From a virus, in the IMG/VR virus record IMGVR_UViG_3300025098_000178, positions 1 through 31,799 of that record: a DNA stretch of 31,799 bases. One strand, written 5' to 3'. Of this stretch, positions 17,441 to 31,799 are shown in pieces; within the stretch, counting starts at the first letter, position 1; every line of letters begins with the position of its first letter. Position numbers and translations under genes: made by a program. Under the pieces are notes generated by a model, which was given only the letters and a program-made list of their open reading frames with translations, searched no databases and was not told where the DNA came from.

Positions 17441-17580
17441 CATCATATTAAACATAAACTTGTTTCCAAATATATTTCTGTAATCAATAAATCAACTTTG
17501 ACCAAAAAGAGTTTTGACTATATCAACCCCATAATGTTAAACATACCCCAGAATATTAAACACCCCTCCATATTAAACGT
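17441..17580 (+). repeat. Intergenic repeat cluster A (4 copies of CATAATATTAAACAT)
   Basis: Copies at 17441-17455, 17530-17544, 17549-17563 and 17566-17580 (the last is less perfect). The first follows a run of six G and the others are separated by runs of C. All have the same orientation. They lie beyond the 3' end and terminator of the 17865-19259 operon. Confidence 0.75.
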
Positions 17581-19106: not shown

Positions 19107-19259
19107 TTAGTATCCCAGTTCTAATTTACATTGAATATCAAAAGCATAACGGCTATATTTGTACCCCCTGCTGACTATCTGTTTTGTTTCTTTGTTGTAA
19201 ACGTAAAAGAGTCCGTTTTCGTCTTCGTGGTCTTCTATAATTACTTCAAATTTTTCCAT
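19107..19259 (-). CDS. Small protein, unknown; first gene of an accessory operon
   Basis: 50 residues from ATG 19259: an acidic N-terminal half (EKFEVIIEDHEDENG) and a basic C-terminal half with SRGYKYSRYAFDI. It is the first gene behind a host-type promoter box (TATATTTG at 19284-19291). No family is recognised. Confidence 0.55.
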   Translation of the reverse strand: MEKFEVIIEDHEDENGLFYVYNKETKQIVSRGYKYSRYAFDIQCKLELGY

Positions 19260-19283
19260 GTTATTATTTGTTTTTGTTCTCTA

Positions 19284-19291
19284 CAAATATA
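19284..19291 (-). promoter_or_regulatory. Host-type -7 promoter box TATATTTG
   Basis: A perfect match to the Bacteroidota TAnnTTTG box, with the start codon of the accessory operon 24 bases downstream. The upstream TTTG is 22 bases away instead of the 20 seen at other promoters here. An imperfect copy of the whole region lies exactly 120 bases further upstream. Confidence 0.5.
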
Positions 19292-19335
19292 CACATTATT
19301 TTAAATATACTAACAAAATTATATTTTTTTTTGCG
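19291..19335. repeat. Promoter-region duplication, copy 1
   Basis: About 45 bases (TTAAATATAC, TAACAAAATT, then a T run and GCG) that recur at 19411-19455 with roughly three quarters identity and an offset of exactly 120. It covers the -33 region of the 19284 promoter. Confidence 0.55.
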
Positions 19336-19524: not shown

Positions 19525-19591
19525 CATAATATTAAACGCACCCCTTCATATTAAACATAGGTAAAAATATACACCCCATAATATTAAACAA
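19525..19591 (+). repeat. Intergenic repeat cluster B (3 clear copies)
   Basis: Copies at 19525-19539 (preceded by six G), 19544-19558 and 19577-19591, with a degenerate copy near 19618-19631. The orientation is the same as clusters A, C and D. The third copy runs into the T tract of the adjacent terminator. Confidence 0.75.
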
Positions 19592-21169: not shown

Positions 21170-21248
21170 CATAATATTAAACATAGTGGGGGCATAATAT
21201 TAAACATAGGGGGGTATAATATTAAACATACCCCTTAATGTTAAACAC
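21170..21248 (+). repeat. Intergenic repeat cluster C (4 copies) between convergent genes
   Basis: Copies at 21170-21184, 21193-21207, 21215-21229 and 21234-21248, spaced 19-23 bases. G or C runs between them pair: GCCCCC at 21165 with GGGGGC at 21188, and GGGGTAT at 21211 with ATACCCC at 21228, the latter enclosing the core in a 10-base loop. The cluster fills the gap between the plus-strand peptide gene and the end of the terminase gene. Confidence 0.8.
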
Positions 21249-26769: not shown

Positions 26770-27336
26770 TTAAATTTTATCGTAATCTCCGTTATAGTAA
26801 TCCTCAGCATCCTCTGAGAAGTTCTCTCTTATAATCTCTCTATATCTCTTTATTGAGTTATAAAGACTGCTTCTTCCTATGCCTGTCTCTCTAGACAACT
26901 TATCTAGAGATAAACCTGTAGTGAAGTAAGCTATAAATATGTTCTTAGAATAAAACTCCCAGCTATTTACTTCTGTGAATATTTTATTTATAAGTCTGTT
27001 AAAGCCCTTCTCTTCTTCAGCATCAACAAACTCTTGCTTTATGCTGTTTAGCGTGAAGTCTAGAGCCTCTTCCTGTATGTCTAGAACCTCATTAGACACA
27101 GACTTCTTCTTAGACTGATTAAGATATATGCTCCTTAGGGTCATATACATATAAAAGTCATTAACATCGTCTTCACCGTAAGATATATCAACACCTTTCT
27201 TAAGGTACTCATAGACCCTGATATAAGCATCCTGAATAACGTCTTCAATGTATGCTGGATTACACCCCATACTCCTTACTAAACCAACCCAAGTATCGTG
27301 CTTGGAAGCTAGTTTCTTTAATTGCTTATTAACCAT
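26770..27336 (-). CDS. Sigma-70-like transcription factor
   Basis: 188 residues. Residues about 10-78 resemble sigma region 2 (NPAYIEDVIQDAYIRVYEYL, then a helical FYMYMTLRSIYLNQSKKK). Residues 142-171 form a region 4 helix-turn-helix (LSLDKLSRETGIGRSSLYNS followed by IKRYREII). This is the layout of a short two-domain sigma factor. It would direct host RNA polymerase to phage promoters; the TTGTTATAATATTATG element is a candidate target. It overlaps the RusA gene by 8 bases. Confidence 0.65.
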   Translation of the reverse strand: MVNKQLKKLASKHDTWVGLVRSMGCNPAYIEDVIQDAYIRVYEYLKKGVDISYGEDDVNDFYMYMTLRSIYLNQSKKKSVSNEVLDIQEEALDFTLNSIKQEFVDAEEEKGFNRLINKIFTEVNSWEFYSKNIFIAYFTTGLSLDKLSRETGIGRSSLYNSIKRYREIIRENFSEDAEDYYNGDYDKI

Positions 27337-30635: not shown

Positions 30636-31070
30636 TTAATAACCTTCCTTAATATGGAAAGACATTGGTTTTAAATCGTCAGTATCAAAGTAAACAAACT
30701 CGTTTGAAACACTAAATCTACTAACACCTCGCATAACTAAACCTCTTATTAATTTAAACCTCTTCTTATTATTTATAAGTCTAATCTTAACACCTAATCC
30801 AACTCTATGTGGATTCTTACTTGTCAATGCTAACTTATCAGCATTTCTTTTACAGGTGTAAGCTAATCTTATATCGAACCTCATTCTTTCTTCCTGAGCT
30901 ATCTCATCTAAGATAAATACTGGAAGTCTCTCCATAAAGTTCTTTCCTGTCTTTATACTGCAAAGCCCACACTTACACATAAATTGAGACCAAAGTAATT
31001 TGTTTAGTCCCTCTTTATCCTCCTCCTCAGTATATCCAATCTCGTAATGTGGGCGATGAAGTAATGACAT
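30636..31070 (-). CDS. Degenerate M15-type peptidase-like protein
   Basis: 144 residues from ATG 31070; a TTG six codons earlier overlaps the promoter box and is rejected. The layout follows the M15 D,D-peptidase family: FMCKCGLC (30-37), then LAYTCKRNADK, SKNPHRVGLGVKI (84-96), and RFKLIRGLVMRGVSRFSV with EFVYFDTDD (124-132). In active enzymes the motif is HxxGxAxD and a later IHxD. Here His88 is kept but the Asp is Lys95 and the second His is Tyr127. A zinc site looks impossible as it stands, so a cell-wall-binding or regulatory role is more likely than hydrolysis. Confidence 0.55.
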   Translation of the reverse strand: MSLLHRPHYEIGYTEEEDKEGLNKLLWSQFMCKCGLCSIKTGKNFMERLPVFILDEIAQEERMRFDIRLAYTCKRNADKLALTSKNPHRVGLGVKIRLINNKKRFKLIRGLVMRGVSRFSVSNEFVYFDTDDLKPMSFHIKEGY

Positions 31071-31074
31071 AGTA

Positions 31075-31106
31075 CGAATATACAACAATAAAGACTATTG
31101 TGCAAA
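31075..31106 (-). promoter_or_regulatory. Host-type promoter of the M15-like gene (leaderless)
   Basis: TTTG, exactly 20 bases, TATATTCG (one mismatch). The ATG lies 4 bases further on (TACT between), so transcription would begin almost at the start codon. Confidence 0.55.
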
Positions 31107-31110
31107 TACT

Positions 31111-31133
31111 AGTTATTAACATTGTAGATAACT
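31111..31133. promoter_or_regulatory. Inverted repeat between divergent promoters, likely operator
   Basis: AGTTAT and ATAACT separated by 11 bases, filling the 30-base space between the -33 boxes of the minus-strand and plus-strand promoters. A dimeric regulator here could control both. Confidence 0.45.
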
Positions 31134-31136
31134 TTA

Positions 31137-31168
31137 TTTGACTTTCCACGAAAAAAACGCTAACTTTG
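31137..31168 (+). promoter_or_regulatory. Perfect host-type promoter on the plus strand
   Basis: TTTG at 31137-31140, exactly 20 bases, TAACTTTG at 31161-31168. It faces the structured region 31172-31341 and not an open reading frame. Confidence 0.6.
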
Positions 31169-31171
31169 CTT

Positions 31172-31341
31172 CAACTTTATTGGGAAAGACACAAGGCTCT
31201 CAAAAGCCGAAGTGTCAAAACAGTATCCCACGCATAAATCAAGTATTTCCATGAAATACGATTTATACTAAACACAAAGTCAACTATACAGGATAGCTGT
31301 GTTTTATAGCCAAAACAAGGGCTTTATGTTAAACAAAGCCC
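31172..31341 (+). ncRNA. Candidate structured small RNA
   Basis: Downstream of a perfect promoter there is no reading frame but dense complementarity. TGGGA (31181) pairs with TCCCA (31226). GACAC (31188) pairs with GTGTC (31212). GGCT (31195) pairs with AGCC (31205). A 13-bp hairpin with a two-base bulge spans 31234-31266. CTATA and TATAG pair around a smaller stem near 31283-31308. A 7-bp hairpin (GGGCTTT with AAAGCCC) closes the region. Product size would be about 170 bases. Function is unknown; antisense or regulatory RNA is possible. Confidence 0.45.
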
Positions 31342-31355
31342 ATTATGTTAAACGA
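31319..31355. terminator. Hairpin with intergenic repeat cluster D (2 copies) between convergent units
   Basis: GGGCTTT (31319-31325) and AAAGCCC (31335-31341) enclose the repeat core ATGTTAAAC in the loop. A second copy follows at 31341-31355, ending one base before the holin stop codon. In the minus direction the hairpin is followed by TTGTTTT, so it can end the holin transcript. Confidence 0.6.
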
Positions 31356-31356
31356 A

Positions 31357-31799
31357 TTATTTCTTCCAGTTCCTAGTAATCTTTTCGGCACTTCTTGCGC
31401 CGAAATAACCACCATAAACAAGTAATAATAGTGAAGATAATAAATCAATCCAATTAGAATCGATTTTAAAGCCCTCTAACGAGCTATCTAAGACAATGTA
31501 GATAAATAAGGTCAAAGTTAAAAAAGCAAGGCTTAGAGGTCTTATATTCTTACTTAACCAACTATCAGAGTTCATGTCAGCAGTCCAACGCTTAGTAGAC
31601 TCTTGCATTTCTATCATATCATACTTTAGCTCCTCTAATAACAACTGCTTATCAGCTTCGCTGAGTTGTTTATCTTTGCCTATCTTATCTGCAAGGTCTT
31701 TTAATTGTTCTATACCAGTAACACTACCAACAACCGATAATAGCTCTGGTGCTACATCTTTACCTTGCTTCACGAGCCACCTTAAAGCATCGCCTACTC
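31357..31799 (-). CDS. 3TM-type holin (5' end cut by window edge)
   Basis: The frame is open to the right edge. A GTG at 31773 is a possible internal start, but the upstream codons (VGDALRWLVKQG) look coding, so the real start is probably outside. The helical N-terminal part (ELLSVVGSVTGIEQLKDLAD) and SWLSKNIRPLSLAFLTLTLF with two clear membrane segments (about the last 55 residues, ending YGGYFGARSAEKITRNWKK) match the 3TM_holin family of gene-transfer agents and phages. It would permeabilise the inner membrane at lysis. Confidence 0.75.
   Translation of the reverse strand, partial: VGDALRWLVKQGKDVAPELLSVVGSVTGIEQLKDLADKIGKDKQLSEADKQLLLEELKYDMIEMQESTKRWTADMNSDSWLSKNIRPLSLAFLTLTLFIYIVLDSSLEGFKIDSNWIDLLSSLLLLVYGGYFGARSAEKITRNWKK

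Follow-up and report, generated by a model that had tools for sequence, protein, structure and literature searches.

A candidate small RNA gene opposite the early operon of phages assigned to marine flavobacteria

A candidate RNA gene at a proposed divergent control locus

A short, structured RNA is very probably encoded on the plus strand of an intergenic region in a virus contig from IMG/VR, where it is predicted to be transcribed from a promoter of the type used by Bacteroidetes hosts. The contig, hereafter called the window, is the whole stretch of 31,799 bases that was analysed, and nearly all of its genes reside on the minus strand. The observations are best explained if the source is a marine flavobacterial phage and the intergenic region is its divergent early control locus. 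On balance, we lean towards a model in which the RNA is made early in infection and uses a conserved 3′ motif to act in trans, and in which its promoter and that of the early operon have an operator in common. This assessment combines our high confidence that the RNA gene exists with a more guarded view of its mode of action, since action in trans is what we would expect of the RNA, with some reservation, provided that the gene is real.

The locus had previously been annotated as a regulated small RNA gene, located between a holin gene and an M15-like gene and ending in a closing hairpin. The existence of such a gene is supported by the recurrence of its promoter, first hairpin and 3′ motif in approximately 50 contigs, but the closing hairpin must be reassigned. 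This structure is a genuine hairpin, but its terminator score is on the opposite strand, where it would end transcription of the holin operon. The coordinates of all features are collected in Table 1.

Table 1. Predicted features of the intergenic region and its flanking genes (coordinates refer to the window)
Feature	Position	Strand	Description
Degenerate M15-like gene	30636..31070	-	Heads the early operon
Early-operon promoter, divergent	31075..31106	-	TTTG 31106-31103, 20 nt, TATATTCG 31082-31075
Candidate shared operator	31111..31133	.	23-bp dyad AGTTATNAACANTGTTNATAACT; sole copy in the window
RNA-gene promoter, Bacteroidetes-type	31137..31168	+	TTTG 31137-31140, 20 nt, TAACTTTG 31161-31168; no mismatch
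Candidate small RNA	31173..31305	+	5′ domain and 3′ motif; recurs with promoter in ~50 contigs
Hairpin 1	31188..31216	+	GACAC-AA-GGCU-CUCAAA-AGCC-GAA-GUGUC
Second hairpin	31234..31266	+	AUAAAUC-AA-GUAUUU-CCAUG-AAAUAC-GAUUUAU; predicted
Conserved 3′ motif	31285..31303	+	UAUACAGGAUAGCUGUGUU; consensus UACAGGAUARSURUGUU
Terminator-like hairpin, holin operon	31319..31341	-	GGGCTTTGTTTAACATAAAGCCC then TTGTTTTGGC; scored on minus strand only
Dispersed repeat GTTTAAYAT, two copies	31326-31334, 31345-31353	-	Separate feature from the RNA
Holin gene	31357..31773	-	Last gene of the late/lysis operon; PHROG 3427 holin, E 7.9e-26

Genomic context

Read from right to left, the genes of the window encode the holin, the M15-like protein, an Erf annealing protein, a RecA/helicase-like protein and RusA, followed by a sigma-factor-like protein, an exonuclease, the terminase large subunit and the structural proteins. 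The gap under study is bounded by the holin stop codon at 31357 and by the codon at 31070 with which the M15-like gene begins, and is the junction at which the late operon ends and the early operon begins. The sigma-factor-like gene of the window (26770-27336; PHROG 1740, E 6.9e-10) is a candidate for a function in late transcription.

The initial annotation had placed this locus in a lysis region, an assignment that the M15-like gene does not sustain. A tblastn search aligns its product with a Rheinheimera peptidase M15 (26.7%, 2e-5). However, the zinc-binding and catalytic residues of M15 enzymes (H..G..A.D and H.D), which the true endolysin of the same phages keeps as HLLGKAAD and HYD, are not preserved at the matching positions. 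The first H and the G are retained, the D has given way to a different residue (I/V-K/R or T), and the second H is an F in all members (YFDTD/YFDVD). Judged by these residues, the gene does not specify a lysis enzyme, and it heads the early operon rather than a lysis operon. Searches for the protein in prokaryote genomes yielded no match, and an AlphaFold2 model was unusable (mean pLDDT 53). The M15-like protein, devoid of the catalytic residues, is conserved in approximately 60 phage contigs, and the gene adjoins one for an intact M15 endolysin in the two loci checked (L092 and L093). The protein might possibly serve as a regulator or inhibitor of the endolysin.

Divergent promoters and the dyad between them

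The main promoters of Bacteroidetes carry TTTG at -33 and TAnnTTTG at -7 (PMC6847099, PMC7366714). The same sigma-A boxes, approximately 20 nt apart, are present in both phage promoters, with a perfect match in the plus promoter and one mismatch, located in the -7 box, in the minus promoter. The earlier description of two opposed host-type promoters, each with 20 bp between its boxes, is therefore confirmed at these coordinates. The exact pattern is found twice in the window, whereas 0.23 occurrences are expected. The -33 box of the plus promoter also reads TTGAC, a feature that most of the remaining promoter-like sites in these phages lack. Relatives carry TTGAC/TTGAT and TAnCTTT/TAACTTC at the same place. 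Because promoters of F. johnsoniae follow a G-at--5 rule (PMC6847099), the plus transcript is predicted to start at approximately position 31173.

The minus promoter is weak when taken alone, because the TAnnTTTG pattern with one mismatch allowed matches 13 sites in the window versus 7.2 expected. In most relatives its -7 box is TATATTTG, and its -33 box is not conserved. When the spacing known for F. johnsoniae is applied, the transcript from this promoter is predicted to begin with the ATG codon itself, whose A is at 31070, and would probably be a leaderless mRNA; by our reading of the sequences the predicted +1 position also falls on the ATG in five other loci (L096, L097, L022, L256 and L266). 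Leaders shorter than 10 nt represent a minority in F. johnsoniae (PMC6847099). A promoter ‘switch’, in which activity of one promoter excludes that of the other, may be envisaged for this pair.

The inverted repeat AGTTAT/ATAACT that had been noticed between the promoters is present (31111-31116 and 31128-31133), and constitutes the outer part of a longer dyad of 23 bp, for which 0.00 copies are expected in the window. Its centre (31122) lies approximately 51-52 bp upstream of both predicted transcription starts. Matches at 19-20 of 20 positions occur in six loci from three subgroups (L086, L087, L090, L093, L094 and L255), compared with shuffled maxima of mostly 10-13, and the spacing or sequence of the dyad differs in other subgroups. 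The dyad is a plausible operator common to both promoters.

A second promoter-like pair on opposite strands is located among small early genes of the window (19131-19316), and a similar pair occurs in contig G015 (21170-21283).

Secondary structure of the candidate RNA

As had been noted earlier, no reading frame follows the plus promoter: the plus strand between 31169 and 31341 contains no ORF of at least 40 amino acids. The predicted folding of the plus strand is more stable than expected by chance (-39.2 kcal/mol, z -3.98). However, the minus strand folds equally well (z -4.29), and thus the choice of strand is not settled by folding. When individual loci are compared, single-sequence folding is strong in the subgroup of the window (z -4.4 for the window), in L265 (-3.5) and in L278 (-2.7), and is weak elsewhere, with values near 0 in L097, L255 and L248. 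The mean z scores of the two strands (-1.79 versus -1.25) differ little.

The outer stem of hairpin 1, GACAC/GUGUC in the window, is changed to GCCAC/GUGGC in L086-L092 and to GACAA/UUGUC in L093-L095. A related hairpin, composed of a stem surrounding a G/A-rich internal loop and capped by a CUCAA-like loop, is found in twelve sequences from other subgroups, where its covariation value is 0.402 compared with 0.152 for shuffled controls (0/500). This value drops to 0.13 or less once the pairing partners are slid by one to three columns. Compensatory changes, whose absence the initial annotation had named as grounds for refutation, are therefore observed both in relatives and in the window's own subgroup. 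In the counted stems there are five G-U pairs and no A-C pairs, which favours an RNA made from the plus strand, albeit with small numbers. The G/A-rich internal loop accompanies hairpin 1 in most subgroups.

The second hairpin has a stem that is nearly invariant in the window's subgroup, which precludes a covariation test, and it is missing from other subgroups. A covariance model built on other subgroups (R1) recovers the hairpins of subgroups D, H and I and misses that of the window, and we treat the hairpins of the different subgroups as related but diverged. Use of the hairpin pattern as a means to find new families returned only chance and known matches, although the second version of the pattern was too strict and misses subgroup H.

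A conserved 3′ motif

Downstream of the folded domain, the candidate RNA carries a sequence in which GG, U and U are invariant among 17-18 divergent representatives. The motif is present once per phage genome and at this locus only, with an additional occurrence in L288 representing a chance match in coding sequence. It is probably unpaired. In subgroup E, the motif runs into a terminator-like hairpin on the plus strand that is followed by a run of T residues.

Searches with the motif covered several sequence sets. Other parts of the phage genomes, examined for repeats of the motif and for sites complementary to it, gave chance matches and no common target. Comparisons with the 16S, 23S, RNase P and tmRNA sequences of one Flavobacterium gave results in or near the shuffled range, and the weak matches that recur at one 23S segment are not ones that we trust. 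Among 84,980 prokaryote genomes, 14 chance matches without a promoter were found, mostly in coding-like sequence.

Distribution among related phages

Relatives of the locus were collected by searching with the M15-like protein, which provided 15 loci and then 56 with an alignment, and a search with the holin added more. Related phages on about 50 contigs in IMG/VR have a plus promoter between the holin gene and the early operon (approximately 51 contigs and eleven sequence types when counted by hand), with a folded 5′ domain and the 3′ motif downstream of it. The nearest relatives, as judged by blastn of the gap against the first-fetched loci and by alignment, retain the plus promoter and hairpin 1. 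In distant relatives, a plus promoter and a 3′ motif are found at the corresponding position, although the DNA is otherwise hardly similar. Since position, promoter and 3′ motif coincide, we hold the subgroups to be homologous on these sequence grounds, even though model R1 misses the hairpin of the window.

Three loci (L344, L328 and L332) have neither the plus promoter nor the motif, and two others (L254 and L257) have the promoter without the motif. In the latter two, a strong G/C hairpin and a different gene occur within approximately 70 nt downstream of the plus promoter, and the transcript of these loci may be shorter or may be another RNA altogether.

The element was not found in named phages as far as these were searched, and it is missing from the Nonlabens phages P12024S and P12024L, which are the nearest named relatives by holin. 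A search of the 84,980 prokaryote genomes for the element gave nothing beyond chance. Neither the window nor 12 related loci match an Rfam 15 family at its gathering threshold. Below threshold, the highest bit score was obtained for RprA (21 versus 70 needed, E 5.8). By the standard of Rfam, the candidate small RNA is a new family. It has the general attributes of phage-encoded small RNAs, namely a promoter of its own, no common reading frame, and conservation of both sequence and structure.

Comparison with OOP RNA and alternative explanations

The closest parallel is OOP RNA of phage lambda (PMC5869508), which likewise is short, has its own promoter and is transcribed against the main direction of transcription. 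Both RNAs adjoin replication genes, are directed towards the terminal part of the gene next to them and have an operator nearby. This precedent provides the main rival to a trans-acting RNA, in which the plus RNA would base-pair with the late (holin) mRNA at its 3′ end and delay lysis, either by marking this mRNA for cleavage or through collision of transcription complexes. The geometry fits, as the RNA is oriented towards the end of the holin gene and would be complementary to any late mRNA that reads past the stop codon, and OOP itself arises from an opposing promoter, with 52 of its bases covering the 3′ end of the coding region of cII (PMC5869508). However, the conserved parts of the candidate RNA lie outside the holin gene and end before its stop codon. 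In addition, a minus-strand terminator separates the holin gene from the plus RNA, and in subgroup E the terminator-like hairpin with its T run is separated from the holin stop codon by approximately 40 nt that lie downstream of it on the plus strand. Antisense pairing alone would not conserve a 3′ motif or a hairpin. Unlike OOP, the candidate RNA has a covarying hairpin, a conserved 3′ motif and a dyad positioned midway between divergent promoters. We consider an OOP-like function to be unlikely.

Another explanation attributes the structure to the minus strand, such that the locus would be the 3′ untranslated region of the late operon with a cluster of terminators, and the plus promoter would be incidental. 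The folding of the window's minus strand and the terminator hairpin at 31319-31341 are consistent with this possibility. However, the plus promoter is conserved across subgroups that have little other sequence in common, the G-U versus A-C count is in favour of the plus strand, and the G/A-rich internal loop would become pyrimidine-rich on the minus strand. An origin in minus-strand structure is accordingly judged quite improbable. We give still less credence to a DNA element, such as a replication origin or a protein-bound site, for which a plus transcript, if made at all, would prime replication or melt the DNA. The location beside replication genes and the nearby dyad and direct repeats might be expected of such an element, but no change in skew is visible, with the caveat that the contig ends close by, and compensatory changes restricted to a stem whose loop is conserved are seen more typically in RNA.

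Finally, the proposal that the 3′ motif is the translation start (AGGA..AUG/GUG) of a short peptide, as might be suggested by the many copies that read AGGATAAGTATG or end in GTG, is scarcely tenable and was rejected on codon evidence: the codons downstream are not conserved and reach stops after 4-24 codons (after 4 in L093 and L094), the frame shifts past the motif between L240 and L242, the AUG is replaced by GUG, AUA or AUU (AUA/AUU in L096, L097, L265 and L273), and Bacteroidetes lack Shine-Dalgarno sequences (PMC6847099). By our reading, these differences in the codons past the motif leave no reading frame that is common to the relatives.

Proposed function

In the model that we favour, the minus promoter would initiate the early operon, beginning with the M15-like gene and continuing with the recombination and replication genes. 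The plus promoter, of the kind recognized by the main sigma factor of the host, would produce a short non-coding RNA of approximately 115-170 nt, in the opposite orientation to almost all of the phage genes. The RNA would have a folded 5′ domain and a probably exposed 3′ motif, which we regard as its working surface. It would most likely be expressed early and act in trans, either through base pairing to an RNA of the host or through an interaction with one of the host's RNA-binding proteins. Binding of a protein to the dyad, midway between the promoters, could adjust both of them at once. We infer the transcription, early timing, operator and mode of action of the RNA from the features described above.

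A more specific version, which is possible but which we regard as doubtful, holds that these phages, a widespread group infecting marine flavobacteria, use the RNA early and specifically to regulate the host against its interest, under an operator common to the early operon. The 3′ motif would then pair with, or act as a decoy for, a conserved component of the host.

Phage-encoded small RNAs are a known kind, and what stands out here is conservation across a lineage, the host group and the common dyad. If transcribed, the RNA would represent a small RNA common to a whole lineage of phages of marine Bacteroidetes. To our knowledge, the RNA biology of phages in this host group is almost unexplored, and we know of almost no description of phage small-RNA control in these hosts. 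An RNA made in opposition to a genome that is read in one direction, from a candidate control site that also serves the early operon, could provide a handle on host takeover, and the conserved 3′ motif offers a concrete bait sequence with which to seek its target.

The holin-operon terminator and dispersed GTTTAAYAT repeats

The terminator-like hairpin of the holin operon has a minus-strand tail of TTTTTT in L087, and in the window it includes the first of two GTTTAACAT copies. These belong to a dispersed repeat, GTTTAAYAT, of which the window contains 14 copies (1.56 expected), all on the minus strand and 13 of them intergenic. Across 79 loci, which represent nearly as many contigs, 454 intergenic copies are on the main coding strand versus 16 on the opposite strand, and the copies are mostly spaced by 17, 19, 23 or 25 nt. 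Arrays of GTTTAAYATNATGGGG (or CCCC) occupy gaps between operons on the minus strand of the window (17445-17578, 19529-19589, 21174-21246 and 31326-31353). Comparable arrays occur in approximately 80 other IMG/VR contigs, and a related terminase is present in 74 of the 79 loci.

The possibility that the repeats form the loops of hairpins was considered and rejected. Pairing between the flanks was scored at 81, compared with a shuffled mean of 71 and a largest shuffled value of 89. Because the flanking G/C runs pair no more than do shuffled sequences, the repeats are interpreted as asymmetric direct repeats and not as structured RNA. They most closely resemble, in sequence features, the stoperators of phage L5 (PMC9283540), which are likewise asymmetric, numerous in each genome, intergenic and oriented with transcription. 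Unlike L5 stoperators, the GTTTAAYAT copies are arranged in tandem arrays, mostly 17-25 nt apart, and these repeats could prove to be more novel than the RNA itself.
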